A stretch of 32,767 bases of DNA from Oscillospiraceae bacterium (GTDB taxonomy: Bacteria > Bacillota > Clostridia > Oscillospirales > Ruminococcaceae), in contig JAFQBH010000042.1 of the NCBI GenBank assembly GCA_017399765.1, forward strand, positions 1 to 32,767, given 5' to 3'. A program made the translations under genes and the position numbers. The notes under the pieces are model-generated. The model ran no database searches, was not told where the DNA came from, and saw nothing but the letters and a program-made list of their open reading frames with translations. This document shows positions 8,467 to 32,767 of the stretch, piece by piece. How positions within the stretch are numbered: position 1 is the stretch's first letter; each line of letters opens with the position of its first letter.

Positions 8467-8495
8467 TTTACTTAAAATGTGATTTGTGATAAAAT
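8467..8495 (+). promoter_or_regulatory. Promoter of the YwaF-like gene
   Basis: TTTACT (8467-8472), 17 bases, TAAAAT (8490-8495) preceded by TGA. It shares the TGTGATAAAAT -10 element with the divergent promoter 15 bases away. Confidence 0.55.
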
Positions 8496-9786: not shown

Positions 9787-10524
9787 TTAATTTATGAATC
9801 TTGCAAGGAATTCCTTGGTTTCTTCTTTCTGCGGATTTGCGAAAATATCTTCGGGAGTTCCTTCTTCCCAGATTATGCCGTCTTTCATAAAAACAACACG
9901 GCTGGAAACGTCCCTTGCGAATGCCATTTCGTGGGTTACGACAATCATCGTAAGTCCTTCCGCCGCAAGCTGGCGCATTACCGCAAGAACTTCGCCGACC
10001 ATCTGGGGGTCAAGAGCGGAAGTGGGTTCATCGAAAAGGAGAACTTCCGGTTCCATAGCAAGGGCTCTTGCTATTGCAACACGCTGTTTCTGTCCGCCGG
10101 AAAGCTGCTTCGGTTTTGCGTTGATATAAGGAAGCATTCCTACTTTTTCAAGGAAATATTTTGCTTTTTCCTCCGCTTCGTCTTTCTTTTTTCCAAGAAC
10201 CTTTATCTGGCCGACCATGCAGTTCTGGAGAACGGTCATGTTGCTGAAAAGGTTGAAGCTCTGGAAAACCATTCCGACTTTTGCGCGGTAATCGGTTACG
10301 GAAAAGCCTTTTTCTTCAATATCTTTTCCGTGGAAAAGGATTTTTCCGCCGGAAGGAGTTTCAAGAACGTTTATGCAGCGGAGAAGGGTGGATTTTCCGG
10401 AACCGGAAACGCCGATTATTGTTGTAACGTCGCCTTTTTTTACGGAAAAATCGATATCGGAAAGAACTTTGTGGCTTCCGAAATTCTTTTCAAGATGCTG
10501 AATTTCTATGATATTTTCGCTCAT
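9787..10524 (-). CDS. Amino-acid ABC transporter ATP-binding protein (probably lysine)
   Basis: This is the cytoplasmic ATPase of a polar-amino-acid importer, 245 residues, the normal size of GlnQ/HisP-type proteins. Walker A is G-V-S-G-S-G-K-S-T (near residue 37), the ABC signature L-S-G-G-Q-K-Q-R, Walker [13 protein letters not shown], and the switch histidine sits in V-V-T-H-E-M. Its ATG overlaps the end of the permease gene by four bases (ATGA). It is the last gene of the riboswitch-controlled operon binding protein-permease-ATPase, so lysine is the most likely substrate; the sequence alone does not fix this. Confidence 0.95.
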
Positions 10525-11318
10525 TTGAAGTCCTCCAAAGTTTTTTCTTTTGCATGATAGGTGTACATTCCGCTGGTATGCGCAAGGGTATCGGTTGTTG
10601 CGAGGTCATAGTTATCGTCGCCGTCGAGTTTCTTTTCAAGAAGTCTGAGAAGGAAGGAAGCGGTAACGGTCATAACGAGATAGATCACCATTACGATGCT
10701 TGCGGAATGGAAGAAGAGATAAAGTGCGCCGACAGCGCTTTTGTGCATGAAGAAGAGGTCCGCAAATCCGATTACGGAAAGGACGGAAGTATCTTTGATG
10801 TTGATGATAAAGTTGTTGCCGATCTGGGGGATTATGTTGCGGAAAGCCTGGGGAATGATTACGTTTATCATGGTCTGAACGTGGTTCATTCCGATCGCCT
10901 TTGCGCCTTCGGTCTGGCCCGGATCTATCGAAAGAACGCCGCCGCGGACGGTTTCTGCCATATATGCGCCGGTGTTGATGGAAACGATAAGAAGTGCGGC
11001 AAAATAGATGTCCATTTTATAATCAAAAACCATGATTACGCCGTAATGGATGAAAACGGACTGGACTATCATCGGGGTTCCGCGGAAAAGTTCGACATAA
11101 CCTTTAAGAATAAGGTTCACGATTTTGAGGATGATTTTTTTCCATGCAGGGTCTTTGCTTTCGATCGGAATGGTCTGAACAACGCCTACTCCGAAACCGA
11201 TAAGACAGCCCACTGCCGTGCCGACAAAAGAAACGATAAGGGTGTTGAGCGCGCCTTCGAGAAATGCGGAACCGTATCCGTTCCAGACTTTGAGGACGCC
11301 TTCGATAAATTCTGCCAA
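10521..11318 (-). CDS. Amino-acid ABC transporter permease (probably lysine)
   Basis: A 265-residue HisM/GlnP-type inner-membrane permease. The segment G-T-P-M-I-V-Q near residue 100, the conserved loop with [20 protein letters not shown] (the EAA motif that contacts the ATPase) and I-P-Q-A-F-R are diagnostic. The start is TTG, with AAGGAG seven bases upstream. The C-terminus extends about 40 residues past the usual end with a charged tail (residues about 230-265). It lies downstream of the binding protein, separated by a repeat and a GC-rich hairpin that may lower expression relative to the binding protein. Confidence 0.93.
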
Positions 11319-11377
11319 GGTTATTCTCCTTTTTATATATTGGATTCCCGGTCAATTTCCCTCCGGGTTACCTAATA

Positions 11378-11430
11378 ATCCCTCTTCCGTCACGCCTCCG
11401 GCGTGCCACCTTCCACTCTGGGAAGGCTAA
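11378..11430. repeat. Two-hairpin dispersed repeat, copy 4
   Basis: AATCCCTCTTCCGT then CACGC-ctccg-GCGTG then CCTTCC-actct-GGGAAGG. It lies inside the ABC operon, between the binding-protein and permease genes. Confidence 0.65.
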
Positions 11431-11454
11431 TAAAAGGGCAGTTGACATTACAAA

Positions 11455-11477
11455 CCGCCCGGAGTTCTTCCGGGCGG
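11455..11477 (-). terminator. Intra-operon hairpin after the binding-protein gene
   Basis: Stem CCGCCCGG / CCGGGCGG with a seven-base loop. On the minus strand the following sequence is TTTGTAATG, a weak T-tract, so it probably stabilises the upstream message or terminates only in part, making the binding protein more abundant than the permease. Confidence 0.55.
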
Positions 11478-11499
11478 CATTTTTTATAAATTTCGGTGA

Positions 11500-12330
11500 T
11501 TATTCGCTGAGAGGCTGAACAGCGATTGCTTCCTGCATCATTGCTTCATAATCTTCAACGGTCATGGTGGCAAGAACGCCGTTAACTGCTTCGAGAAGTT
11601 CGGTGTTGCCTTTCTTCATGGAGATTCCGAGGTTGATTTCTTCTTCGGAAACTTCAAATTCGCCTTCGGTGCCGGTGAAATCGAGAAGGACCATATCGGA
11701 ATAAACAGCGGTTGCTGCCATTGCGGTAGGCATATCGGTTACAACGAGGTCAACTGCGCCGGAATCAAGAGCAACGAGCATTGCGGGTGCGGTTTCCTGT
11801 GCGTTCTGGATATCAGCATCCGGAATCTGCGGGAGGCAGATATCATACCAGATGGTTCCGAGCTGGGAAGTGCAGACAGCGCCTGCAAGGTCTGCTACAG
11901 AGGTTGCGGAAGCATAAGCGGAATCTGCTTTGGTAAGGGTTACGATGGAAGCATAGAAATAAGGATCGGAGAAATCTACTACTTCAAGTCTTTCTGCGGT
12001 GATGGACTGGCCTGCGATTACGAGGTCAACGTCGCCGGAATCAACTGCGGGAACAAGTGCGTCCCAGTCGAGTTTTACGATTTCAAGTTCTTTGCCCATG
12101 GATTCAGCGATAAGTTTTGCCATCATTACGTCATAGCCGTAAGCGAAGCTGTTGGTTCCTGCGATCGGAACAGCGCCGTTGGAATCATCATTCTGAGTCC
12201 AGTTATAAGGTGCGTAGGCACATTCCATTGCAACGCGGAGAACGTTGTCATTTTCAGGTTCGCTGCCGCAGGCTGCAAGGCCCAGGCACATTACCATTGC
12301 GAGTACGAGTGCGATAATCTTTCTTGTCAT
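11500..12330 (-). CDS. Amino-acid ABC transporter substrate-binding lipoprotein (probably lysine)
   Basis: A 276-residue extracellular solute-binding protein, family 3. The N-terminus M-T-R-K-I-I-A-L-V-L-A-M-V-M-C-L-G-L-A-A-C is a lipoprotein signal with lipobox L-A-A-C, so the mature protein is anchored by its cysteine. Diagnostic motifs are Y-A-P-Y-N-W-T, G-Y-D-V-M-M-A-K, D-L-V-I-A-G-Q-S-I-T-A-E-R and V-V-D-F-S-D-P-Y. The frame is open 29 codons further upstream, but that would destroy the signal peptide and lacks a ribosome binding site, whereas AAGGAA lies upstream of ATG 12330. It is the first gene after the lysine riboswitch, which makes L-lysine the likely ligand. Confidence 0.93.
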   Translation of the reverse strand: MTRKIIALVLAMVMCLGLAACGSEPENDNVLRVAMECAYAPYNWTQNDDSNGAVPIAGTNSFAYGYDVMMAKLIAESMGKELEIVKLDWDALVPAVDSGDVDLVIAGQSITAERLEVVDFSDPYFYASIVTLTKADSAYASATSVADLAGAVCTSQLGTIWYDICLPQIPDADIQNAQETAPAMLVALDSGAVDLVVTDMPTAMAATAVYSDMVLLDFTGTEGEFEVSEEEINLGISMKKGNTELLEAVNGVLATMTVEDYEAMMQEAIAVQPLSE

Positions 12331-12380
12331 TTTTGTTTCCTTCTTTCCTAAGAATTCATTTTTTTGCGGCTTTTTTGAAA

Positions 12381-12419
12381 ATAAAAAAGCCATGAATACT
12401 TTCGGATGAAGATTCATGG
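12381..12419 (-). terminator. Terminator of the lysine riboswitch expression platform
   Basis: On the minus strand CCATGAAT (12412-12419) pairs with ATTCATGG (12390-12397), followed by CTTTTTTATTTT. It lies between the aptamer and the first gene, the expected place for a transcriptional attenuator. Confidence 0.85.
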
Positions 12420-12477
12420 TACATTCTTACACAAAATGCTTTGCGGAATATTCTTTATCAATAAACCGCTAACCAAT

Positions 12478-12641
12478 GATAGCTCTCCACCGAAGTGACA
12501 GTCCAAAGGATATTTTCCCCTGGCCCAGCAAACGGAAAACAAGGCCTTTTCCCGAAAGCTTCGGCGAAAGTTCCTTTCTCACAAAACCGGGAGCCTTCCC
12601 TTAACTTGCTTTGCGTTACTAATAGCTTTCGCGCCTCTACC
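12478..12641 (-). ncRNA. Lysine riboswitch (L-box) aptamer
   Basis: The minus strand carries the conserved L-box blocks in order: GGTAGAGGCGCG, AGTAACGC, GGGAAGGC, GAGAAAGGAAC, CGCCGAAGC, GCTGGG, and ACTGTCACTTCGGTGG ending GAGAGCTATC. The first and last blocks (GGTAG / CTATC) close the P1 stem. Established knowledge of RF00168: lysine binding favours the terminator, here at 12381-12419, and shuts down downstream genes. This makes the three-gene ABC importer a lysine uptake system repressed when lysine is plentiful. Confidence 0.95.
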
Positions 12642-12681
12642 ATTGTTTATGGCAAAGCCAAAAACAATATGTATTTTGTTT

Positions 12682-15663: not shown

Positions 15664-16044
15664 ATGGATTTAAGCGACAAAAACCTTATCTCCAAAAAAC
15701 AGCTTCTTGAAAAATATGAAATTTCCTATGGCGCGCTCTATCGCTGGAAGCGAAAAGGTCTTATTCCGGAGGATTGGTTCATAAAAAAATCCACCACCAC
15801 CGGTCAGGAAACTTTTTTCCCGAAGGACCTCATCACCGAAAGGGTTGAACTTATCCTTGAAAAAAAGGAGGACGTTCTTCTTGATGAACTGGCGGAAAAA
15901 ATTTCCGGTGAGGAGGAAAACAACGCAAAAATCGTTATCGAAACGGTTTTCGGCGAAAAAGTTTTCTTTTTAAAGGATATAAAAAACATAAATCTGGTTG
16001 ATAAAAACGGAAAAACCAGAAAAATCGAAATTTTGGAGGACTGA
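15664..16044 (+). CDS. yhbD: YhbD family protein (DUF4004, MerR-like helix-turn-helix)
   Basis: A 126-residue protein. Residues 8-45 (I-S-K-K-Q-L-L-E-K-Y-E-I-S-Y-G-A-L-Y-R-W-K-R-K-G-L-I-P-E-D-W-F) are a MerR-like winged helix, and T-G-Q-E-T-F-F-P-K-D is the family signature. The C-terminal half is beta-rich and less conserved. In Bacillus, YhbD precedes the bactofilins YhbE/YhbF, and here too the bactofilin-like gene follows three bases later. AGGGAGG precedes ATG 15664; upstream in-frame starts lie within the promoter. The protein probably regulates its own operon through the palindromes at 15585 and 15612, an inference. Confidence 0.88.
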   Translation: MDLSDKNLISKKQLLEKYEISYGALYRWKRKGLIPEDWFIKKSTTTGQETFFPKDLITERVELILEKKEDVLLDELAEKISGEEENNAKIVIETVFGEKVFFLKDIKNINLVDKNGKTRKIEILED

Positions 16045-16047
16045 AAA

Positions 16048-16761
16048 ATGGATATGAAAATTTCAGGTGCCGGAGTTATCGGCGGCGGCGAATATGATAA
16101 AATTTCAATAAGCGGAAGCGCAAAGGCGGAAGGTTTTATCCGCTGTAAAAATTTCGAATGTTCCGGCGCTTTCTCCGGAAATTCGGATATCGAATGTGAA
16201 AACGATATAAAAATTTCCGGTGCTTTCAAAAACACCGGAAAAATCAAGACAAAGGAATTCGAAACTTCCGGAAGCGCAAAAACCGGCACAATTTCCGCGG
16301 AAATCATCAGGGTTGCCGGAGCTTTTAAGGTTGAAGGAAATCTTAAAGCGACCGAACTCAAAATCGGCGGCGGTCTTAAAACCGAAGGCGACATAGAGGC
16401 GGAAAAAGCCGAAATAACCGGCGGAGTTTCCTGCGGCGGACTTATCAACGCGGAAGAAATAAAAATCGAACTTTCAAATTCTTCAGGTTCAAAAGCCGAA
16501 AGCATTGGCGGAAGCAGAATTGTTATTGAAAATTACAGGGAAAAAGGAATTATCGAGCGAATTTTCGGAAGAAAAACCTGCGGCTTCGTTGTTTCAGAAT
16601 CCATCGAAGGCGACGAAATCATAATCGAGCACACCAAGGCAAAAAACGTTACCGGAAAATACGTTATGATCGGTGAAGGCTGTGAGATCGAACTTCTTCA
16701 GTATTCCGAAAACGCGGAAATTTCGCCTAAAGCAAAAATCGGAAGATGCGAGAAAATCTGA
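16048..16761 (+). CDS. Bactofilin-like polymer-forming protein (YhbE-like)
   Basis: A 237-residue protein consisting almost entirely of short beta-helix repeats with the recurring pattern I-S-G-[AS]-[AF]-K and G-x-I-x-x-x-x-x-x-x-G, the bactofilin type of cytoskeletal protein that polymerises without nucleotide. The length equals that of Bacillus YhbE. It is translated three bases after yhbD with a GGAGG site between, so the two form an operon. Bacillus homologues affect cell surface and motility assembly; the role here is not known. No membrane segment is present. Confidence 0.82.
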   Translation: MDMKISGAGVIGGGEYDKISISGSAKAEGFIRCKNFECSGAFSGNSDIECENDIKISGAFKNTGKIKTKEFETSGSAKTGTISAEIIRVAGAFKVEGNLKATELKIGGGLKTEGDIEAEKAEITGGVSCGGLINAEEIKIELSNSSGSKAESIGGSRIVIENYREKGIIERIFGRKTCGFVVSESIEGDEIIIEHTKAKNVTGKYVMIGEGCEIELLQYSENAEISPKAKIGRCEKI

Positions 16762-23977: not shown

Positions 23978-24108
23978 CGGGCGAACACACAGGTTCACCC
24001 CTGCGGATTCAGAATTGATATTGGTGCGTCGTGGCAGGTGAGGCTTTTATCCGCTCTTTAATTTTGCATTATGCATTTTGAATTATGAATTAAAAAAAGC
24101 ACCCTCAG
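23978..24108. repeat. Intergenic repeats ending in a truncated terminator
   Basis: The gene-free interval 23829-24266 continues here with GGGCGAAC...GTTCACCC (about 23980-23999) and then, from 24061, a copy of the TTTGCATTATGCA repeat seen at 9722. At 9753-9780 that unit ends in a complete AAAAAAGCACCC/GGGTGC hairpin; here AAAAAAAGCACCCTCAGG runs straight into unrelated sequence, so the right half is missing. This marks the insertion point of the element. Confidence 0.7.
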
Positions 24109-24185
24109 GATAGCTTCCAATAAGACAGTATGAGAACATTACTGACATAGGGTAGCTGCCGTACAGGAGTGCGACAAGAAAAATT

Positions 24186-24223
24186 GGCGATACTTGGTTT
24201 TCAAAACCAGGTATCGCCTTTTT
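24186..24223 (+). terminator. Strong hairpin terminator at the element's left end
   Basis: GGCGATAC (24186-24193) / GTATCGCC (24211-24218) continued by TGGTTTT / AAAACCA with a single-base loop, then a T-run. It would stop transcription entering from the chromosome or a leader transcript ahead of tnpV. TCCAATAAGA (24116-24125) and TCTTATTGGA (24247-24256) are inverted around it. Confidence 0.85.
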
Positions 24224-24266
24224 CTATCTTTAACAGAATGTTTGAATCTTATTGGAGGTACATATG

Positions 24267-24629
24267 ATGCAGGAACTGAACTATATCCGTTTCGGTGATT
24301 ACTATATTCCCGATATTCGTTTGCCAGAGGAAACCAGACCTATTGGTCGTTGGGGGCGTATGCACAGAGATTATATCAAGGAGCATAACCCTATTCGTTT
24401 TAACAATCTGTGTCTTAGCGGTGAGCTATGGACTTATCTGGCTGATTTGAACGAGCAGGCACAAAGCCGCTTTGAACTTATTATCGAGCAAATGAAAGAC
24501 TCTGAGGGCGTGACAGAGCGCATGAAGCAGCACGATCAGATGGCGTGGGTTGGAGCTATGAACAGCATCCGCAACCGAGCCGAGGAAATTGTTCTGCGTG
24601 AGATGATCTACGAGGAGGATGCGGTATGA
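24267..24629 (+). CDS. tnpV: TnpV-like transposon protein
   Basis: A protein of about 121 residues starting M-Q-E-L-N-Y-I-R-F-G-D-Y-Y-I-P-D-I. P-I-G-R-W-G-R-M-H-R-D-Y-I-K-E-H, the helix L-N-E-Q-A and M-A-W-V-G-A-M-N-S-I-R-N-R-A-E-E-I-V are the hallmarks of TnpV of Tn4451 and relatives. TnpV is not needed for Tn4451 excision as far as known and has been loosely compared with Xis-type proteins; its function is open. ATG 24267 is chosen for its eight-base distance to GGAGG (24254-24258); an adjacent ATG at 24264 is five bases away. Its end overlaps the next gene by four bases. Confidence 0.9.
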   Translation: MQELNYIRFGDYYIPDIRLPEETRPIGRWGRMHRDYIKEHNPIRFNNLCLSGELWTYLADLNEQAQSRFELIIEQMKDSEGVTERMKQHDQMAWVGAMNSIRNRAEEIVLREMIYEEDAV

Positions 24630-24889
24630 GAATCCTTGAAGAATTTTGGTACGGCAACATCGAGCCAACCGAGTATGACACATCCTCTTGCAAAGAATAC
24701 AAGAAGCTACTGGAGCTGATTTGCAAGAACGAAGAAAAGCTCAAAGCCACCATGACTGACGAGCAGAAAGAATTGTTTTCTCGATATACAGACTGTGTAC
24801 GAGAGTTCCAGACAATGACAGACTGCTTGCTGTTTCAGAACAGTTTCAAATTAGGTGCAAGAATGATGTTGGAAGTCATGGAAGAATAA
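24626..24889 (+). CDS. DUF6809 family protein
   Basis: An 87-residue helical protein; M-R-I-L-E-E-F-W-Y-G-N-I-E-P-T-E near the start and F-K-L-G-A-R-M-M-L-E-V-M at the end are the conserved blocks of DUF6809, small proteins found beside tnpV on clostridial mobile elements. The ATGA overlap with tnpV shows translational coupling. The function is unknown; no metal-binding or catalytic motif is visible. A terminator follows at 24905. Confidence 0.85.
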   Translation: MRILEEFWYGNIEPTEYDTSSCKEYKKLLELICKNEEKLKATMTDEQKELFSRYTDCVREFQTMTDCLLFQNSFKLGARMMLEVMEE

Positions 24890-24904
24890 TCGAATATCCC
24901 AAGT

Positions 24905-24939
24905 GGGGCTTGTGCTTAGTTGGGCACAAGCCCCCTTTT
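24905..24939 (+). terminator. Rho-independent terminator after the tnpV operon
   Basis: Stem GGGGCTTGTGC / GCACAAGCCCC with an eight-base loop and TTTTT. Its arms resemble those of the terminator at 32120-32152 (GGGGCACAAC). Confidence 0.88.
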
Positions 24940-24940
24940 T

Positions 24941-24967
24941 AGCTTCTGCCCGAGTTAGTAAGAAGTT
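24941..24967 (+). repeat. Degenerate palindromic unit upstream of the accessory operon
   Basis: AGCTTCTGCCCGAGTTAGTA then AGAAGTT. It agrees at 22 of 27 positions with the perfect palindrome at 32228-32254 and, like it, comes soon after a terminator. It flanks the accessory operon on the left. Confidence 0.6.
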
Positions 24968-24998
24968 CTCACTTGCTTTCGTACAGAAAAGTTCACAA

Positions 24999-25036
24999 AT
25001 AATACATTGACAATAAATTTGTCAATGTATTATAAT
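24999..25036 (+). promoter_or_regulatory. Promoter and 35-bp operator palindrome of the accessory operon
   Basis: TTGACA (25007-25012), an 18-base spacer and TATAAT (25031-25036). The promoter is embedded in a perfect inverted repeat: ATAATACATTGACAA (24999-25013) and its complement at 25019-25033, five bases apart. The arms contain the -35 box and reach the -10, so a bound dimer must block transcription. The XRE protein encoded first in the operon is the obvious candidate repressor. Confidence 0.85.
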
Positions 25037-25057
25037 GTTAACAGGAGGTGCGTAGAA

Positions 25058-25558
25058 ATGGAAGAGATTATTCGAATGCAAGAGAACCTGCTGCTGTTGC
25101 GACGAACTGTAGGATGGACAGCAGAAGAATTTGGTGAAAAAATAGGTGTCACACGCCAGACTATAAATAACATTGAAAATGGTCGTAATAAACTGACCAA
25201 AACACAATATATCGCCATGAGAAGCGTCCTTGATGCTGAAATGGTTCAAAAGCCAGAAGACACCGAAATGCTTAAGGTACTTTTGGATGTACTCGTAGAT
25301 CATCCTGAAAACTATAGTCCTGAAAGTCGCAGCGAACTACTGTCAAAGGCAAATATGATGGCACCTTCCATCCTTGCAGGAACTACTTCTCGAGCAGATG
25401 TATCTAAAGAATGGATAAAAGTTGCTGGTGCTGTTGTTGGGGTTGGTGCGCTTATGGGAGGACCTCTCAGCATAGGGGCGGGTATTGCTGCGGTAAATGT
25501 GTGGCTTGCCAAATCTGTTGCTGAAAGTAAAAAGAAATCAAAAAAGAACAAGGAGTAA
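25058..25558 (+). CDS. XRE-family regulator with C-terminal glycine-rich membrane segment
   Basis: A 166-residue protein in two parts. Residues about 8-65 are a Cro/C1-type helix-turn-helix (L-R-R-T-V-G-W-T-A-E-E-F-G-E-K-I-G-V-T-R-Q-T-I-N-N-I-E-N-G), with a linker of about 65 residues. Residues about 120-155 form a glycine-rich hydrophobic segment (A-G-A-V-V-G-V-G-A-L-M-G-G-P-L-S-I-G-A-G-I-A-A), followed by a very basic tail. AGGAGG precedes ATG 25058. It likely represses its own operon through the 35-bp palindrome, perhaps while attached to the membrane, where the next two products may also sit. A DNA-binding protein with such a tail is unusual and suggests a signal-sensing role, an inference. 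Confidence 0.85.
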   Translation: MEEIIRMQENLLLLRRTVGWTAEEFGEKIGVTRQTINNIENGRNKLTKTQYIAMRSVLDAEMVQKPEDTEMLKVLLDVLVDHPENYSPESRSELLSKANMMAPSILAGTTSRADVSKEWIKVAGAVVGVGALMGGPLSIGAGIAAVNVWLAKSVAESKKKSKKNKE

Positions 25559-25563
25559 GTGAC

Positions 25564-26109
25564 ATGGGTGACTATGTAAAAAAGAAAAAGGATATGGTCT
25601 TCCAAAGTGTGGACTCTCTTCAGCAGGTTGTAAATGTTGTAAACGAAGCTGCCGCAGCTCTAAATGACTCCAAACGAACTATTAAGGAGAGTGCTATTCC
25701 GGAAGTTCTTGCAGGAGCCCTCGGAGCGGGCATTGGTGGTGTCGGTTCCTTTGCTGCCCTTTATGGTTTGGGTGTTGTCGGTCTCTCCGCTGCAGGAATT
25801 ACATCCGGTTTGGCAACTGCTGGCGCACTTGTCGGTGGCGGAATGGTTGCAGGTGTTTTCGTTTTAGCCGCACCCATTGCAGCTTTAGCAGCTGGCGGTG
25901 TCGGTGTGGCTTCCCACCTCAAGAGCAAACAGCTACGGCAAGAAAAAGAACGTCTTTACAAAGAAGTTTTGGTTCGACATGAGGCCATTATTAAGGCACT
26001 TAAGGATGAAGCTGATGCCGCTAAGGAACGCTTAGATTACTTGCAAAGTCTAAACATATTACTCCAGCAAGCCGTGAAAGATTTGAGCCATGATCTGGGT
26101 GTTGCATAA
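25564..26109 (+). CDS. Glycine-zipper membrane protein with C-terminal coiled coil
   Basis: A 181-residue protein of no family I can name with certainty. Residues 1-45 are polar and helical; 48-117 are strongly hydrophobic and rich in Gly/Ala in a zipper-like spacing (G-A-L-G-A-G-I-G-G-V-G, L-S-A-A-G-I-T-S-G-L-A-T-A-G-A); 119-175 are charged and predicted coiled coil (K-Q-L-R-Q-E-K-E-R-L-Y-K-E). The central part resembles ISG12/IFI6-type glycine-rich segments of eukaryotic interferon-induced proteins and their bacterial look-alikes. AAGGAG precedes the ATG, five bases after the XRE stop. A membrane-inserting or pore-forming role is conceivable, not shown. Confidence 0.78.
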   Translation: MGDYVKKKKDMVFQSVDSLQQVVNVVNEAAAALNDSKRTIKESAIPEVLAGALGAGIGGVGSFAALYGLGVVGLSAAGITSGLATAGALVGGGMVAGVFVLAAPIAALAAGGVGVASHLKSKQLRQEKERLYKEVLVRHEAIIKALKDEADAAKERLDYLQSLNILLQQAVKDLSHDLGVA

Positions 26110-26121
26110 AGGAGGTTTTTC

Positions 26122-26469
26122 ATGGGAAACCGTTTCAAAGTACCCAATATCGATTTTGCCAAGATTGGTAATACGCTTGTACAAGCTGGTAGAACAGCTG
26201 GCAAATTCGTCAGTGACCATACGCCGGAATTTCTCATAGGTGCGCTCTCTTTTGTTACTGCTGATAATATCCGTGTTCGCCTGGGCCGTAAAAATGATCA
26301 GAAAGCTTTTGAGAAAAATGCTATCAGCCAGCAAGCGGTTATCAGAAAGCATGAAGCTGAAATCAATGTACTGAAAGAGCAAGCAGATCAGGCACAGGAT
26401 GCGCAGCAAAGAGTAGACCGGTTAGAGCAAATCGTAAAAAACATAACAGAGGGAGGTGCTACGGAATGA
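26122..26469 (+). CDS. Small protein with hydrophobic centre and C-terminal coiled coil
   Basis: A 115-residue protein. Residues about 10-50 are mildly hydrophobic (A-G-R-T-A-G-K-F-V-S-D-H-T-P-E-F-L-I-G-A-L-S-F-V), and 62-110 form a heptad-like charged helix (I-R-K-H-E-A-E-I-N-V-L-K-E-Q-A-D-Q-A). In layout it is a shorter relative of the preceding gene's coiled-coil half; both have the phrase R-K/R-H-E-A with I-x-x-L-K. AAAGGAGG precedes the ATG. Its end overlaps the next gene by four bases (ATGA), so their production is coupled. No family is recognised. Confidence 0.75.
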   Translation: MGNRFKVPNIDFAKIGNTLVQAGRTAGKFVSDHTPEFLIGALSFVTADNIRVRLGRKNDQKAFEKNAISQQAVIRKHEAEINVLKEQADQAQDAQQRVDRLEQIVKNITEGGATE

Positions 26470-27830
26470 GCAAGTTCAAATATACAGAAACCGAGAAGCA
26501 AATGAATACCGTACTCAAGCACCAAGATGAAATCCTCAAAGGAATACAGTTTCCATCTCAAGCAGAATCCGATGCAATAGCAGCAAAAGCAGATTCCTTA
26601 CTTCGTAGCCTTGGATATAAGCCAGAAGAACTCCAAGGACTTACCCCTTCTGTTAAAACAAAAAGCGTAATGGCCGTTCCGACCTGGGAAGAAGTATGTC
26701 ATGATGCCGAGCGGCACGTAGGGACGAATTGCGATTTGGAATCTATCTTCACAGAAGAAGAGCTTAAAAGCAACGAACTCGCTATTAAGCAGATGAATGC
26801 AGAATTTAGCGCTATCCACCGTTTGGATGCGTTTGATGTTTCAATTGCGGCTTTAGCGGCTCTCGTCGGTGCTACTGTTGATATTTTGCTTGTAGGAATT
26901 CCAGAAAAGACACCAGATGGATTGAAAGCCGGAACACTTTCAGACTACATCCGTGATTATTTCGATAAGAGATTCCCGGAAGAAGAAATGAAAAAACTTG
27001 CAAACTCAAAGGAAAGCAAGGTTCCGTTTGATGCTCAGGACAACAGACACACTACAATCCGTGTCGAAGGACTTTCTGCATATTATCACAGACTCCTTCA
27101 ATTAGGGCATGACCCTGTTTTGGGGTTCGTTTTCGGTGTAGCCGACATATTGACCGGACGAATGACCACGATTGACAAAACAGGTAGAATTGTCTCTCAG
27201 GTCATGGAGAACTATGCTGATCGCACAGAAGCAGATATCTTTGCTGCCTTGGCAAAGCAAATTGCACACTTCAAATCTGACGTAACAACGTCTATGGGGT
27301 TGCCTGTTCCCCTTATGAGCCTATTTAATCTTCTGCAATTCGGCAGTATTGGTGAAGAGGAACAGACTATTGCAGAAATCGTACAGGGCATGTACTATGA
27401 AGGGTATGATTTCATCCATTTCTGTTCTATGTCTATTCCCGCCATGCTTGTAGAAGTCATTGTTAGAATAGGTTATGCATTAAAGCGAATAAAAGAAGGC
27501 TATTCCGTAAAAGACTCTATTCCTATTTCCCTGAACAGAGAAAAGCATCCAAAACTGGCAACGATGTTGTTTATGGGCCATTCCGCTGTAACGGCGGTCA
27601 ATGCAGGAAAAGTTTATTTTACCCAAAATCCTATGGCAATAAATTATCCAGAGTGGATTGCATTTGCAAAATATTCGTACAGCCAACTGAAATGGATGTT
27701 GATCGAGAAGCCTGAATTAAAGGATCAATATGTAAGAGGGAAAATTAACGAAGAATTACATAGTATCATTGCCGAGGCAGATAAAACCTTTGAGAAATTT
27801 AGTTCAGAATATACAGTAGTATTCCACTAA
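26466..27830 (+). CDS. Uncharacterised 454-residue accessory protein
   Basis: I do not recognise a named domain. The N-terminal 110 residues are polar and helical; 122-145 are a hydrophobic segment (D-V-S-I-A-A-L-A-A-L-V-G-A-T-V-D-I-L-L); then come a charged region with G-T-L-S-D-Y-I-R-D-Y-F, the segment H-D-P-V-L-G-F-V-F-G-V-A-D-I-L-T-G near residue 220, and P-V-P-L-M-S-L-F-N-L-L-Q-F near residue 280. The short hydrophobic blocks suggest peripheral or embedded membrane contact. I have the impression that the G-H-D-P-x-L-G block is shared by unnamed clostridial proteins. It is translationally coupled to the preceding coiled-coil gene, so the two products may form a complex. Confidence 0.8.
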   Translation: MSKFKYTETEKQMNTVLKHQDEILKGIQFPSQAESDAIAAKADSLLRSLGYKPEELQGLTPSVKTKSVMAVPTWEEVCHDAERHVGTNCDLESIFTEEELKSNELAIKQMNAEFSAIHRLDAFDVSIAALAALVGATVDILLVGIPEKTPDGLKAGTLSDYIRDYFDKRFPEEEMKKLANSKESKVPFDAQDNRHTTIRVEGLSAYYHRLLQLGHDPVLGFVFGVADILTGRMTTIDKTGRIVSQVMENYADRTEADIFAALAKQIAHFKSDVTTSMGLPVPLMSLFNLLQFGSIGEEEQTIAEIVQGMYYEGYDFIHFCSMSIPAMLVEVIVRIGYALKRIKEGYSVKDSIPISLNREKHPKLATMLFMGHSAVTAVNAGKVYFTQNPMAINYPEWIAFAKYSYSQLKWMLIEKPELKDQYVRGKINEELHSIIAEADKTFEKFSSEYTVVFH

Positions 27831-27853
27831 CATAGTGCACGGGAGGTTGGATT

Positions 27854-30808
27854 ATGTCAGAAAAACAAAATATTGCATCGCATCCCGACCTCTTGGCTGA
27901 ATGGGACTGGGAAAAGAACAATGCAATAGGATTACAGCCAGAAAGCATATCCATTGGTTCTGTAAAGAAAGTTCAGTGGATATGCAAGTTTGGACACCGA
28001 TGGGAAGCAACTCCGAATAACAGAAGTCGAGGTCAAGGTTGCCCTGTCTGCGCTGGTCGCAAAATTGAAATCGGCTTTAATGACCTTGCTTCAAAGTACC
28101 CATTGATTGCATTAGATTGGCATCCCGATAAAAACGAGGGATTACTCCCAACACAGGTTACATCTGGCTCCAATAAGAGAATATGGTGGCATTGCTCTGA
28201 ATGTGGACATGAATGGCAAACCTCGGTAGCAAATCGTGTCGCAGGAAAAGGATGTCCTGTTTGTAGTCGAATAAAGCAAGGATTAACAAAAGAACAAAAT
28301 CTTGTTGAGCAGAAAGGTTCATTTGCTTCTCACTATCCTAATCTGCTAAATGAGTGGGATTATGAAAAGAATGCTGTAGATCCCGAAAAAATCACAAAGG
28401 ATTCGACACGCAGAGTATGGTGGCGTTGTGCTGAATGTGGGCACTCTTGGACTACAACTGTTTCTCATCGTACGATACGTGGCTCAGGGTGTCCCGCCTG
28501 TGCAAACAAAATTACAACAGCCAATAATTGTATTGAGACAACCCATCCGCACATTTTGGGGAAATGGAATTATAGACGCAATCACCATGTTACACCCAAA
28601 GATGTGACAGCGGGATCGAACAGAAAAGTTTGGTGGGTATGCGAACAAGGACATGAATGGCAGGCTGCGGTAACAAGCATCGTAAATGGCGGTGTGTGTC
28701 CGGTTTGTTGCGGGCAGCGTGTTGAAATCGGATACAATGACTTGGCATCTGTCAATCCGGAGCTTGCCAAGGAATGGCATCCCGCTAAAAATGGAGACTT
28801 ACTCCCAACGCAATTTACCACCGGCAGTTCGAGGGTGAAAATCTGGTGGCTTTGTCCCAAAGGTCATGAATATCAGACTACTATTGCCAACAGAACAAAC
28901 GGCACAGGTTGCCCTATTTGCGAGAAGGAACGCAAAACAAGTTTTCCGGAGCAAGCCATCTTTTACTATCTCAGAAAGATTACCAGAGCGGAAAACAGAT
29001 ACCTATTTGCTGGAAAAACCGAAATTGACGTGTACCTTCCTGAATATCAGGTTGGTATTGAATATGACGGACTTTACTATCATGCAAGCCCGGAAGCATA
29101 TACGAAAGAGCAAAAGAAAGATGCGCTTTTGTCACGAAATGGAATTGCCGTCATTCGTGTAAAGGAGGTCAAGGATACATCTGCCTACCAAGATGACGAT
29201 AAAATAATCTACTGCCGCAATGCAGGAAATTACCTCTATTTGAAGGATGTCATTCATAAAATAATTCAGCGCATACCGCTCCTTTCAAATAGCTGCAATA
29301 ATCTTGATATTGACATCGACCGTGATGTGGCCTCTATCATGTCGCAGTATATCCAATCCGAGAAAGAAAACAGTTTGGCAGTAAAATATCCAGAGTTGGC
29401 AGCCGAATGGCACCCTACTCGAAACGGATATATTTCTCCTGAAATGGTGAGCTATGCAAGCGGCAAAAAGGTATGGTGGTTGGGACAATGCGGACATGAG
29501 TGGTCAGCAGTCATTTCAAATCGTATTGCTGGAAATGGGTGTCCCATCTGTTCAAATAAAGAAGTGTTGGCAGGATTTAATGATCTCGAAACAACACATC
29601 CTCTATTGGCTAAAGAGTGGGACTATTCTAAAAATGGTTCACTCACACCCCAAAGAATCACCTTTAGTTCCGACAAAAAAGTTTGGTGGGTTTGTTCTAA
29701 AGGACATAGTTACCAAGCAACTGTATCCAACCGTTATTATGGAAAGAATTGTCCATACTGTTCCAACACTAAGGTGCTTAAAGGCTACAATGATTTGGCC
29801 TCTCAGTATCCACAAATTGCAGCGGAATGGAATTACAGCAAAAATCGTGATACACCAGATCAAGTAATGCCTGGATCAAACAAAAGGATTTGGTGGAAAT
29901 GCAGTACCTGTGGGCACGAATGGATAGCTCAACCGAACCATCGTGTATTCCGTCAATCCGGTTGCCCAGCTTGTTCTGGTCGAGTTGCTACCCACGACGA
30001 AAACCTTCTGGTTGCCAATCCCGAGTTGTGCAAAGAGTGGAATGTTGCTCGCAACAAAAAATCACCAAGTGAATATCGTCCACAATCCAGTCAAAAAGTG
30101 TGGTGGGTCTGTTCGACTTGCGGATATGAATGGAATGCTAAAATTAGCGAACGTAGCAAAGGGACAGGTTGCCCGTGTTGCGCTGGCAAAAAAGTTTTGA
30201 AAGGTGTAAATGACTTAGCTACCATGCGTCCAAGGCTTGCAGAAGAATGGGACTACGAAAAGAACACAACTATTTCCCCAACAGATGTGACAATAGGAAC
30301 TCATAAAAAAGTATGGTGGAAATGTTCGGAATGTAGTTATGAATGGCAAGCGTCCATTTCTAACAGAAGTAAAGGGCGAGGATGTCCGATGTGTGCAAGA
30401 AGAGCCACAACGGAAAGTAAGGAAAAAGAGATATTCCAATACAGTTCGTATGGCGAATATATCAAAATGTTTAACAGCATAAAAGAAGCCAAAGAACAAT
30501 TGAGCCTTAATTCCATTTCGCCGTCTTCTACGGAAAAGAAAACATCGGGTGGCTTCATTTGGCTTTTGGAGAGGGACGACAATAAGGCTCTCGAAATAGC
30601 CGCTACAATCAACCAGTCTCGTACTGTTTTCAAAAAAATGCCGGTTCTGCAGTATTCTATTGATGGCTCATTCATCAAAAGGTATGCTTCTTCTGGTGAA
30701 GCAGAAAGAGAAAATGGTATTGCTCGCTCAAAGGTTGGTGCTTGCTGCCGGGGAAAAAACAAAACTGCTGGCGGTTATGTTTGGCGTTACGACATTGAAG
30801 ACAACTAA
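27854..30808 (+). CDS. Zinc-ribbon repeat protein with PD-(D/E)XK nuclease and NUMOD1-like modules
   Basis: A 984-residue protein. It has ten copies of a unit of about 68 residues: N-D-L-A ... E-W-x-x-x-K-N ... P-x-x-V-T-x-G-S-x-K-x-V-W-W-x-C-x-x-C-G-H-E-W ... N-R-x-x-G-x-G-C-P-x-C, the PF14311-type zinc ribbon. Five lie before and five after a central nuclease domain (about 363-475): F-P-E-Q (Glu366), E-I-D-V-Y-L-P (Asp392) and G-I-E-Y-D-G (Glu403, Asp405), the Vsr/DUF559-like PD-(D/E)XK fold, with R-N-G-I-A-V-I-R-V-K-E after it. The end carries two NUMOD1-like modules (V-L-Q-Y-S-I-D-G-S-F-I-K-R-Y ... A-G-G-Y-V-W-R-Y). Repeat 6 lacks its first zinc cysteine, and repeats 9 and 10 the His of the GH pair. 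It probably binds and cuts DNA. Confidence 0.88.
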   Translation: MSEKQNIASHPDLLAEWDWEKNNAIGLQPESISIGSVKKVQWICKFGHRWEATPNNRSRGQGCPVCAGRKIEIGFNDLASKYPLIALDWHPDKNEGLLPTQVTSGSNKRIWWHCSECGHEWQTSVANRVAGKGCPVCSRIKQGLTKEQNLVEQKGSFASHYPNLLNEWDYEKNAVDPEKITKDSTRRVWWRCAECGHSWTTTVSHRTIRGSGCPACANKITTANNCIETTHPHILGKWNYRRNHHVTPKDVTAGSNRKVWWVCEQGHEWQAAVTSIVNGGVCPVCCGQRVEIGYNDLASVNPELAKEWHPAKNGDLLPTQFTTGSSRVKIWWLCPKGHEYQTTIANRTNGTGCPICEKERKTSFPEQAIFYYLRKITRAENRYLFAGKTEIDVYLPEYQVGIEYDGLYYHASPEAYTKEQKKDALLSRNGIAVIRVKEVKDTSAYQDDDKIIYCRNAGNYLYLKDVIHKIIQRIPLLSNSCNNLDIDIDRDVASIMSQYIQSEKENSLAVKYPELAAEWHPTRNGYISPEMVSYASGKKVWWLGQCGHEWSAVISNRIAGNGCPICSNKEVLAGFNDLETTHPLLAKEWDYSKNGSLTPQRITFSSDKKVWWVCSKGHSYQATVSNRYYGKNCPYCSNTKVLKGYNDLASQYPQIAAEWNYSKNRDTPDQVMPGSNKRIWWKCSTCGHEWIAQPNHRVFRQSGCPACSGRVATHDENLLVANPELCKEWNVARNKKSPSEYRPQSSQKVWWVCSTCGYEWNAKISERSKGTGCPCCAGKKVLKGVNDLATMRPRLAEEWDYEKNTTISPTDVTIGTHKKVWWKCSECSYEWQASISNRSKGRGCPMCARRATTESKEKEIFQYSSYGEYIKMFNSIKEAKEQLSLNSISPSSTEKKTSGGFIWLLERDDNKALEIAATINQSRTVFKKMPVLQYSIDGSFIKRYASSGEAERENGIARSKVGACCRGKNKTAGGYVWRYDIEDN

Positions 30809-30835
30809 TAACACAGAGAAAAGGATGGTGAAAAC

Positions 30836-32026
30836 ATGATTGAAGCGGGCAAATACTGGGTTGCTAAAGGTCAAAAGATTGATGATATAAATAATATTGA
30901 AGATGTAATCACTTTTGACTGGAGTAAAAATCCCACAGATGACTATATAAAACTGAGTGAATCTTTTTATTATGCAGCTCGAATTATTGCAGAAGAAATC
31001 GTTGAACATTCTTCTGACAATGTCAAATGTGATCAATGGTTTTTCCCGTCCTTTTATCTATATAGGCAAGCTATAGAACTTCTGTGCAAGGGATTATTAA
31101 TTTCGGTTGTTCCTCGAAAGGATATAACAAATAAGCTTACCACCTACAAGCATAATATCATCGACTTATTCAAGGATTATTGTAGTATTTCATCAACTCA
31201 AGCTTTTATCAAAGATGAGGTGAGTTGGTTGAATTCTTATCTCACCGAATTGGAAATCATCGATAGCAAATCCAATTTGTTTAGGTATCCTATAAAAGAT
31301 GGTTATCTAAACCAATATAGAGATGATTTTCTTGATATCGTCGATATGATAAATTCGATTGACCAATGCTATTCACTTATCTTTAAGTGTGTAAATGAGA
31401 AGCATAGTCCTCTGAAATATACTAACGGAATTGATCTATCGCTCACTCCAAAGGTTTTGTTTTTTGCAACACATGGATTTGGAAACTGCATGTTGTATAC
31501 TTCACCGTGGGATGAGGGGTACTATCCACATATCCAAGGATACTCAGATATAGCTTACTTTTTGATCGACAAAATGGAGAAGAATCACTGGTCATTTCTC
31601 CCAATAGCATTTCTAATTAGGCATGCCATAGAACTTGCTCTTAAATGCATGTTGGTGTCACGAACGGATACAAATGTCGGCGAACACGTGCAACGACAGA
31701 AAAGAAGAAGCCATATCATTTATAAAGATTTGTGGAAATCCGTTAAGGACATGGTTGAGCATTATGCTAATGCAATGGGATATGATTTAGAGGTTGTGTC
31801 CTGTGCGGATACATATTTGAATGAATTAAGCTCATTGGACAAACAGGGCGATAGATTTAGGTATCCAACAAATTATGGTCTCGAATACCATTTGAGTTTA
31901 AGTAAAGTCGATTATTATCAAGCTATATATTGGTTGATAGGCATATTTAATTTTGTTAATGGCTGCTCTGATATGCTTGATGCGGCCTACGAATTTGAAT
32001 GTGACATGAGGTCTGAATATCTGTGA
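30836..32026 (+). CDS. Tandem-repeat alpha-helical protein (HEPN-like halves)
   Basis: A 396-residue protein built from two diverged copies of one unit. The first has R-Q-A-I-E-L-L-C-K-G-L-L (from Arg77), H-N-I-I-D-L-F-K and F-R-Y-P (149-152); the second R-H-A-I-E-L-A-L-K-C-M-L (from Arg262), H-I-I-Y-K-D-L-W-K and F-R-Y-P (341-344). The R-x-A-I-E-L-x-x-K helix and all-alpha character resemble HEPN-type domains, many of which are RNases in defence and toxin systems, but a convincing R-x4-6-H catalytic motif is not clear. It is the last gene of the operon, 27 bases after the nuclease gene. Base composition is the most A/T-rich of the cassette. Confidence 0.75.
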   Translation: MIEAGKYWVAKGQKIDDINNIEDVITFDWSKNPTDDYIKLSESFYYAARIIAEEIVEHSSDNVKCDQWFFPSFYLYRQAIELLCKGLLISVVPRKDITNKLTTYKHNIIDLFKDYCSISSTQAFIKDEVSWLNSYLTELEIIDSKSNLFRYPIKDGYLNQYRDDFLDIVDMINSIDQCYSLIFKCVNEKHSPLKYTNGIDLSLTPKVLFFATHGFGNCMLYTSPWDEGYYPHIQGYSDIAYFLIDKMEKNHWSFLPIAFLIRHAIELALKCMLVSRTDTNVGEHVQRQKRRSHIIYKDLWKSVKDMVEHYANAMGYDLEVVSCADTYLNELSSLDKQGDRFRYPTNYGLEYHLSLSKVDYYQAIYWLIGIFNFVNGCSDMLDAAYEFECDMRSEYL

Positions 32027-32119
32027 GCGAGTGGGAATTTCAATATCTTCTTTGTTTTTCGTGTATAAACGAACTCCGGTGTATGCTATGGATGAAAAAC
32101 TAAATGATCGTAAAGCAAG

Positions 32120-32158
32120 GGGGCACAACAGCTATGAACGGCGTTGTGCCCCTAAACT
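32120..32158 (+). terminator. Terminator of the accessory operon
   Basis: Stem GGGGCACAAC (32120-32129) / GTTGTGCCCC (32143-32152), then TAAACTTTTTT. Short frames that run through it are not credible genes. The stretch 32027-32767 has no supported protein gene; its contents are the terminator, the palindrome array and the candidate RNA listed next. Confidence 0.82.
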
Positions 32159-32195
32159 TTTTTGCGTAATTTCTTATGTTAACTTTCCCGTTCTA

Positions 32196-32356
32196 ACTTC
32201 GGTGCAACTTGCGGCGAAGTGATTTTCAACTTCTGCCCAAGTTGGGCAGAAGTTGAATTTAGGACTTCCGACCAACTTGGTTGGAAGTGAGTTTTATATT
32301 CCCGACAAGTTGTCGAGAAGTTAGTTTTGAAAATTCTGCCCAGGTTGGACAGAATT
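32196..32356. repeat. Array of five spaced palindromes
   Basis: Units at 32196-32220, 32225-32257, 32264-32288, 32299-32319 and 32332-32356, with centres at 32208, 32241, 32276, 32309 and 32344 (spacing 33, 35, 33, 35). Each has the plan ACTTC-NNNN-CAA-C/G-TTG-NNNN-GAAGT. Ends and centre are conserved while the inner four bases differ from unit to unit and mostly stay complementary. The second unit is a perfect 33-bp palindrome with 16-base arms. Not a CRISPR: units vary and there are no unique spacers. Confidence 0.85.
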
Positions 32357-32471
32357 ATTTTTGCCCGTTGATATTTCTCTTGAAAACGTCCTAACAGGTA
32401 GAGAGAACTTTTCTGCTACCGTTGATTTGCGTTCTCTGTAGTTCCGAATATAGTGAGGGGGCTTTGCAATC

Positions 32472-32500
32472 TTGACGGTATAGTACATTATCTGTATAAT
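32472..32500 (+). promoter_or_regulatory. Promoter of the candidate RNA
   Basis: TTGACG (32472-32477), 17 bases and a perfect TATAAT (32495-32500). No ribosome binding site with an open frame follows, which fits a non-coding transcript. Confidence 0.7.
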
Positions 32501-32506
32501 AATGGC

Positions 32507-32757
32507 ACAGCGGTACGCCGCTACATAACAACTGAATAGAAATGTTCGACCATATTGAGACATAATTAGTCGGTTTTATCCGACACGGTATCGGTACACC
32601 GGAAGTGCCGAACTGCTCCACCACGCCTTTGGTTCTGTTGGCGGGAGCAGTATGAAGCAGAACCCGACTTTGATCTTCAGAGCCGATTACATAGAACATC
32701 ATTTTGAAGCGAGAGCCACGCTCCCGCCGATTTCTGATGCTCTGTGTAATCGGCTCT
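32507..32757 (+). ncRNA. Candidate structured RNA of about 250 bases with kissing loops
   Basis: Between the promoter at 32472 and a terminator the sequence is dense in hairpins: AGCGG/CCGCT, GTCGG (32569-32573) / CCGAC (32580-32584), and GGTTCTG (32631-32637) / CAGAACC (32658-32664). The 3' hairpin has 22-base arms (32679-32700 and 32736-32757, two non-Watson-Crick pairs) followed by TTTTTG. GGCGGGAGC (32640-32648) in one loop is the exact complement of GCTCCCGCC (32720-32728) in the other, a nine-base kissing interaction. No known RNA family is recognised. A minus-strand frame (32391-32702) overlaps it but lacks a ribosome binding site. Confidence 0.5.
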
Positions 32758-32767
32758 TTTTGTTTAC

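Follow-up and report, generated by a model that had tools for sequence, protein, structure and literature searches.

The Oscillospiraceae contig presented above (JAFQBH010000042.1) carries, between positions 25058 and 32026 of its plus strand, a run of six genes that most likely amounts to a reduced form related to the Bunzi anti-phage system, self-regulated and accompanied by a nuclease gene (gene 5) and gene 6, and not a wholly new six-gene system. The window, i.e. the whole 32,767-nt stretch analysed, is the entire source contig (C42) of a 1.83-Mb genome that is 88% complete; gene calls are greedy picks of open reading frames (ORFs), antisense ORFs among them. A sequence-only reading of this DNA had proposed an undescribed six-gene defence or conflict system. 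Its gene layout is borne out exactly, the six ORFs being spaced by 5, 12, -4, 23 and 27 nt (with the start of gene 1 taken as 25058; the ORF as listed opens earlier, at a TTG), and so is its defence flavour, in that gene 4 is a homologue of BnzB and the gene 2-gene 4 pair occurs on several kinds of mobile element. The word 'undescribed' no longer fits a locus whose core is related to Bunzi and to the PADLOC candidate PDC-M09. Besides the window, all six genes occur together in one of 80 loci with gene 4, L007, which is the same element; an entirely new six-gene system was rejected, since the genes do not travel together. We assign a probability of roughly 0.6 to the reading that the locus is a TerB-less Bunzi-like membrane defence module on a mobilizable element, with genes 5 and 6 as added cargo; genes 2 and 4 would form the main pair, gene 3 would derive from gene 2, and gene 1 would be the switch. 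The recurrent, mobile Bunzi-like module in a new arrangement, with two cargo genes, is real.

Gene 4 (26466..27830, plus strand; 454 amino acids (aa)), previously entered as an unknown, matches the PADLOC model of BnzB (PDLC03834) with E = 1.6e-62, residues 11-434 aligning with positions 49-500 of the 504 in the profile, and by this measure is a nearly full-length homologue of the BnzB protein of Bunzi. It contains three hydrophobic segments. Across 13 diverse relatives, some of them partial, D124, D189, H208 and H215 are invariant and D139, H268, S271 and D272 nearly so, a pattern of D and H residues as expected for a catalytic or ion-binding site. The conserved D/H set, a similar motif order (HR...H, then H-x3-D-x2-[NT]) and the three hydrophobic segments would also suit the view of BnzB as a YdjM-type (PF04307) hydrolase that is metal-dependent and bound to the membrane, but hhalign returned probabilities of 0.2-0.3% in three tries, one aligned segment being the H-x3-D motif. 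The likeness is one of motifs, with profile homology absent (hhalign at most about 0.3%), and we set the assignment aside as unlikely.

Relatives of gene 4 were found by tblastn in 491 plasmid records, mostly of enterobacterial genera and, among the matches listed, mostly near 30% identity, as well as in three phage records. The 80 gene-4 loci (L002-L081) comprise 62 from genome_contigs, 13 from viral_contigs and five annotated regions, and span Bacillota, Actinomycetota, Bacteroidales metagenome-assembled genomes and one enterobacterial plasmid. After length filtering and de-duplication the gene-4 alignment holds 61 rows besides the window, 60 of them 50-94% identical to the window and one a 23% paralogue (L015), which was excluded from the tree; the gene-2 alignment holds 52. 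Because several loci are near-duplicates (e.g. L003/L058, L027/L065, L036/L037, L047/L048, L056/L057, L073/L074 and L078/L079), the 80 loci, and the 10 gene-1 loci considered below, stand for fewer independent events. Within the window's own family it gives matches in 4 of 197 genomes, own included, the other three being weak and partial, and full-length gene 4 was not seen in the other genomes of that family (197 searched). Of 398 genomes of the phylum, 10 (that of the window among them) match the BnzB model, and for two of these the match is only near E = 1e-3.

Gene 2 (25564..26109, plus strand) encodes a glycine-rich, hydrophobic protein, as its earlier description as a glycine-zipper membrane protein had it, with a C-terminal coiled-coil-like part; it resembles a BnzA zipper without TerB. 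It is present in 74 of the 80 gene-4 loci, located on prophages, plasmids and other mobile elements, at 54-97% identity to the window over 52 rows. Among the six loci without it, L055 and L066 begin inside gene 4, L068 has a gene 4 fragment only, L004, an element of Streptococcus suis, shows no more than a short ORF with a gene-2-like end, and L006 has a different zipper protein in its place. The sixth, L060 (8895-11305), has its BnzB relative after two other genes, one for an HTH_17 protein that includes a hydrophobic stretch and one for a small protein rich in Gly and Ala, and is thus a second, unrelated case of a helix-turn-helix (HTH) plus hydrophobic protein beside BnzB. In L067 (9088-11009) the pair is broken, genes 2 and 4 being represented by several fragments only.

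The link between gene 2 and the partners of BnzB elsewhere is carried by a profile comparison. A glycine-zipper partner adjoins or is fused to BnzB relatives in L005, L006, L120, L121, L122, L124 and L125, and BnzB relatives occur on plasmids, in phages and in distant genomes. Against a zipper profile of six such partners, gene 2 reaches an hhalign probability of 95% (E = 4e-8, score 59.9), 20 column-shuffled controls giving scores of at most 20.7 and probabilities of at most 1.2%. In the more distant genomes the partner is longer: L122 combines TerB with the zipper, L120 and L121 have a different N-terminal part before it, and in L124 and L125 zipper partner and BnzB are fused. The L122 partner has a Pfam TerB match above the cut-off and a PADLOC match to PDC-M09A, and the BnzB ORF there is only 218 aa long. 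Because the profile joins gene 2 to the partner zippers, the shared core would appear to be zipper plus BnzB, the form in the window being without TerB. The PADLOC BnzA model itself aligns with gene 2 over positions 297-407 of 544 (E = 6e-5; about 20% of the model), gene 3 intervening before gene 4. A PurE chain that emerged as a solved-structure relative of gene 2 (E = 1.4e-3) was judged compositional.

With Bunzi the locus has in common a BnzB-like gene 4, an adjoining glycine-zipper partner and carriage on mobile elements, whereas gene 2 lacks TerB and most of the BnzA model, and the window adds a regulator with a conserved operator, a gene-2-like gene and two cargo genes. The TerB domain is common to Shango and Bunzi according to a published account (PMC10952713), and Bunzi is listed as having an unknown mechanism and as largely uncharacterised in a 2026 review (PMC12926258). 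The relation to PDC-M09, a candidate of two components (A and B), is more indirect: the zipper partners in L006, L120, L121 and L122 and the fusions in L124 and L125 match PDC-M09A, whereas gene 2 has no PDC-M09A match and gene 4 no PDC-M09B match, neither gene showing homology to either component at E 0.1. In L006 (3294-5847), the human-gut phage NatCom_3357, a BnzB match (E = 3.7e-99) adjoins a PDC-M09A match (E = 3.9e-70), and this pairing links the two PADLOC entries. Among the papers listed by full-text searches of one literature collection, none was seen to unite Bunzi with PDC-M09 or to report a TerB-less form.

Gene 3 (26122..26469, plus strand) is probably a shortened paralogue of gene 2, to judge from the likeness of the two proteins. 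In 68 loci both gene 2 and gene 4 are complete; at most 60 nt separate them in 46, and a 'slot' protein lies between them in 22, i.e. 21 found by the slot script (76-132 aa) plus L070, whose gene-3 ORF overlaps both neighbours. Slot proteins are similar to gene 2 over its last third (46% identity and E = 9e-20 in L018; E = 7e-6 in L003), and for the pair in the window the alignment spans 70 aa at 30% identity (E = 5.6e-4). When gene 2 was compared with profiles, that built from gene 3-type proteins (eight rows) reached a probability of 84% and that built from all 22 slot proteins 98.5%; the 20 shuffles made for each stayed at or below 0.84%, column shuffling leaving coiled-coil periodicity uncontrolled. 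Paralogy of genes 2 and 3 is well supported by these comparisons. The coiled-coil protein that had been read here is reflected only in weak coiled-coil-type matches in library scans; the protein resembles gene 2. A hydrophobic stretch is clear in 11 of the 21 scripted slot proteins (best 19-residue mean at least 1.45), weak in eight (0.84-1.21) and absent from two; gene 3 of the window has no hydrophobic segment above the threshold of 1.3. The protein could act as a partner or a brake of the zipper.

Gene 1 (25058..25558, plus strand) encodes an XRE-type HTH regulator (HTH_3, E = 1.8e-9) with a hydrophobic, Gly/Ala-rich C-terminal tail, as the sequence-only reading had recognised; the tail is kept in all 10 relatives and the window, and the regulator is possibly membrane-tethered. 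A single promoter shared by the operon, another earlier proposal, is matched by a sigma-70-type site (TTGACA-18-TATAAT; 25007..25036, plus strand) that agrees with the consensus at 12 of 12 positions and is the sole perfect site in 24800-32300. It is preceded by a terminator-like hairpin (24905..24934, plus strand; a 13-pair stem and a T run, by consensus match only) between the upstream TnpV and DUF6809 genes and the operon. Only the perfect promoter match carries weight, since the scan totals for this region (19 promoter-like and 5 terminator-like sites) are not above those of its shuffles (17.2 and 5.7).

The promoter contains a putative operator of gene 1, the palindrome TTGACA-N7-TGTCAA (25007..25025), which includes the -35 box. 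Gene 1 has a match in 11 of the 80 loci, of which that in L029 is a different, 90-aa XRE protein and was dropped from the operator count. The 19-bp palindrome lies at the gene-1 promoter, with the -35 hexamer inside it, in 10 of the 10 other full-length gene-1 loci as well as in the window, L031 having a mismatch in the right arm. The 80 loci, 1.2 Mb in all, contain just two other matches, both with non-A/T spacers, and in the 1.83-Mb genome of the window the palindrome is present in a single copy. The search pattern was composed after inspection of the promoters; in L026, L027 and L065 the called gene-1 ORF begins upstream of the palindrome and the site thus falls inside it, and some loci begin near gene 2 (e.g. 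L069), so that gene 1 is not visible there. As a finder of new gene-1 loci the operator alone failed: the strict pattern picked out one viral_contigs stretch and a relaxed one 11, that one included, and tblastn of genes 1-6 against these 11 loci gave nothing. These matches are unrelated, so the presence of the palindrome does not by itself point to gene 1. Gene 1 is likely to repress its own operon, because the conserved palindrome contains the -35 box of the gene-1 promoter.

The presence of gene 1 goes along with that of the slot protein, found in 10 of 10 gene-1 loci but, where gene 1 is missing, in 12 of 58 complete loci; part of this co-occurrence reflects shared ancestry. The four-gene form is seen in L003, the annotated phage NatCom_11578, where genes 1-4 adjoin two large serine-recombinase-like genes, and likewise in L058 (Anaeromassilibacillus sp. 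An172).

The mobile context that the sequence-only reading had assumed is confirmed by L007, a locus of Clostridia bacterium RGIG7280 from water-buffalo caecum that holds the same element at a different insertion site. By blastn the window matches L007 over 24093-32385 at 89.5% and over 32364-32765 at 84%, and all six proteins are encoded there at 84-97% identity. The homology starts at 24093 in the window and at 7639 in L007, the left flank being an M23-peptidase gene in the former and a VanW-like gene in the latter. Downstream of gene 6, L007 encodes MobC, a relaxase (Relaxase, E = 3.9e-13) and a large serine recombinase with Resolvase and Recombinase matches, i.e. the relaxase and recombinase that define an integrative mobilizable element; the window contig stops before that part and so holds the left part of the element (24093..32767, plus strand, from the left edge of the homology to the end of the contig). 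Upstream of the operon lie genes for TnpV, a transposon-encoded protein (24252..24629, plus strand; Pfam TnpV, E = 2.4e-45), and for a DUF6809 protein (24626..24889, plus strand; Pfam, E = 1.7e-26). The element may be akin to the Tn4451-like mobilizable elements; TnpV, MobC, a relaxase and a large serine recombinase are shared with these elements, whereas the element of the window and L007 bears defence-like genes as cargo.

Gene 2-gene 4 pairs in general sit in prophage, plasmid and integrative locations, which favours a mobile defence module. L005 has the pair on an IncHI1B-type plasmid, and in Salmonella, according to a survey, Bunzi calls made with PADLOC and DefenseFinder are concentrated on IncHI1 plasmids (PMC11305592); the two observations agree, whether or not the same pair was called. 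The same distribution invites a different explanation, that the pair serves element maintenance, entry exclusion or toxin immunity and not anti-phage immunity. In this account it would be telling that, of the 491 plasmid records in which gene 4 has a relative, 436 are conjugative and that pairs adjoin phage recombinase genes, and a membrane localisation would suit exclusion. We nevertheless regard it as doubtful: the pair is also found on phage and non-conjugative records, and the BnzB family is defined by a system that reportedly protects against phages (Millman 2022).

Genes 5 and 6 look like add-on cargo because a single locus among the 80 has the full set again, and that locus is a near-copy of the element itself. 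The neighbourhood comparison that had been suggested for the six genes thus gave a divided answer, genes 1-4 recurring as a unit in part of the 80 loci and genes 5 and 6 being distributed separately, with the full six in L007 alone.

Gene 5 (27854..30808, plus strand) encodes 10 DUF4379 treble-clef stretches into which a PD-(D/E)XK-like nuclease is inserted, with its motif at aa 390-410, and a NUMOD-like C-terminus. This upholds the zinc-ribbon/PD-(D/E)XK nuclease named earlier, with an EIDVYLP..IEYDG motif and a REase_MTES_1575 match that stays below threshold (E = 5e-4). The architecture is that of the DUF4379/PD-(D/E)XK/NUMOD nucleases of the phage endonuclease PHROGs families, the differences being that gene 5 stands in a defence-like operon and that its treble-clef stretches flank the nuclease. 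There is a nearly even chance that gene 5 encodes a homing-type endonuclease of the selfish kind, which came to lie downstream of a defence module unrelated to it. The NUMOD-like C-terminus, matches to PADLOC homing endonucleases (E = 1.6e-10), its place in PHROGs endonuclease/homing families and the scattered occurrence of gene-5-type proteins (at E 1e-20, 29 genomes out of 147 in the order, that of the window among them, with several places per genome in some) all fit this idea. What it accommodates less easily is that gene 5 lies within the same gene run, is conserved in L007, and has counterparts adjoining gene 2-4 pairs in two further loci, L054 (40% identity, convergent) and L081 (23%, upstream and codirectional), which brings such neighbours to three of 80 loci.

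Gene 6 (30836..32026, plus strand) is a tandem-duplicated protein, HEPN-like at most. The duplication noted before is sound, the halves aligning with E = 8e-9, while the HEPN part of that call is weakly supported. Gene 6 shares with HEPN-domain proteins a tandem repeat with R-x3-E-L-x2-K, and for its relative in L101 Pfam HEPN gives a match below threshold (E = 0.0031), whereas it lacks a conserved R-x4-6-H and has an FRYP motif of its own in each half. The catalytic R-x4-6-H was found in none of five aligned rows at any of three invariant R columns, which weakens the proposed RNase; a catalytic tandem HEPN RNase was rejected on this ground and for its weak profile signal. Relatives covering 83-93% at 25-28% identity are encoded by three Bacillus-group plasmids, near a type I restriction-modification locus, TIR-domain genes and an AAA ATPase gene; none was found in phages or viral_contigs.

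The close packing of the operon could also be taken to mean that genes 1-6 form one integrated multi-effector system, in which zipper/BnzB, a DNA nuclease and gene 6 are all under a sensor-regulator at the membrane. One perfect promoter and gaps of at most 27 nt argue for such a unit, as do the gene-5-type neighbours in L054 and L081, although only 29 of the 147 genomes of the order have such a protein at all. Set against this are the single recurrence of the full six, the 0 of 14 viral gene-5 relatives that have genes 1-4 or 6 within the available flanking DNA, the rarity of gene 6 (2 of 295 genomes of the order and 3 of 398 of the phylum, own included, the others being partial) and its lower GC content (0.353 against 0.414-0.478), and we consider full integration improbable.

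A TerB-less Bunzi-like module with added cargo remains the preferred reading, and a number of results weigh against it. Gene 4 has no family in Pfam, NCBIfam or PHROGs, and genes 2 and 6 have no informative one there; a profile search gave no convincing solved-structure relative for genes 2, 4 and 6 or for the nuclease region of gene 5. Gene 2 aligns with no more than about a fifth of BnzA, and when the whole genome was searched with the BnzA model, the match fell on another contig and gene 2 was missed. None of genes 1-6 has a Pfam TerB match at E 0.1, the control, the L122 partner, scoring 25.8 bits against a cut-off of 24.4. Only one of the six partners in the hhalign profile (L121) has a PADLOC BnzA match, a weak one, and the TerB-zipper partner of L122 matches PDC-M09A and not BnzA. 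L060 has a BnzB relative without gene 2, the gene 3 profile controls leave periodicity uncontrolled as mentioned, and a tree test of gene 1 with the slot protein had four independent pairs on starred branches, with which significance was unreachable.

How such a module might work can be outlined from the homologies. Gene 1 would repress its own operon by binding the palindrome around the -35 box, until infection gives a signal that upsets gene 1, the inner-membrane assembly of genes 2, 3 and 4, or both, and brings about derepression. The glycine zipper of gene 2 would then insert or oligomerise, and BnzB would work with it as a membrane-associated enzyme or gate, with the outcome that the infection is blocked or that cell growth stops. 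The nuclease of gene 5 and gene 6, under the same promoter, may contribute cleavage of DNA or a further means of toxicity. A wider proposal, which we rate as quite improbable, is that Bunzi, PDC-M09 and the short form make up one superfamily with a core of glycine-zipper protein and BnzB and an exchangeable sensor, be it TerB, another N-terminal domain, or the tailed XRE repressor of gene 1 with a decoy-like gene 3, coupling membrane disturbance to derepression of an operon that arms nuclease and gene 6. If true, this would amount to a membrane-sensing, transcription-coupled defence switch with several effectors. In L077 (8619-9998) gene 2 seems, by eye, to be fused to an N-terminal domain resembling ADP-ribosylglycohydrolase, possibly a further sensor swap.

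The comparison narrows the Bunzi-like family to two recurrent proteins, zipper and BnzB, with six candidate residues in the latter (D124, D189, H208, H215, H268 and D272). TerB is absent from a widespread form for which a specific operator and repressor are predicted, and tools that require full-length BnzA could overlook this form, spread over three phyla and enterobacterial plasmids. By way of the predicted core, residues and operator, the uncharacterised Bunzi system becomes directly testable.

The surroundings of the gene-4 loci yielded 286 neighbours (258 after de-duplication), of which 116, all from L002-L054, were scanned. Among the best 25 of 209 PADLOC and 25 of 101 Pfam families were recombinases (6 members), mad2 (3) and mad5 (2), and the matches listed also include type I specificity subunits (2), ResIII (2), macro domains (2) and others; these are counts without a background control, and no enrichment is claimed.

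Downstream of gene 6 the window contains five tandem palindromes of about 25 bp (32190..32354) in a 29-nt register with spacings of 33/35, all of the type ACTTC...GAAGT, with arms that differ yet remain self-complementary. A similar cluster occupies 15716-15874 of L007, which has in addition a perfect copy at 8485, just upstream of gene 1. In a script scan of 1.8 Mb, duplicates included, this type was confined to the element, the sole other match, in L168, being an A/T-rich sequence of a different sort. L007 also has, at 15909-16123, three copies of a 30-nt repeat containing CGGCTACCAC; they lie between its palindromes and its mobilization genes, in a stretch of about 300 nt without a counterpart in the window. 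Outside the element, an ordinary lysine riboswitch (12472-12647, minus strand; Rfam, 98.7 bits) lies upstream of what by eye are operon-like genes for an amino-acid ABC transporter (9787-12417).

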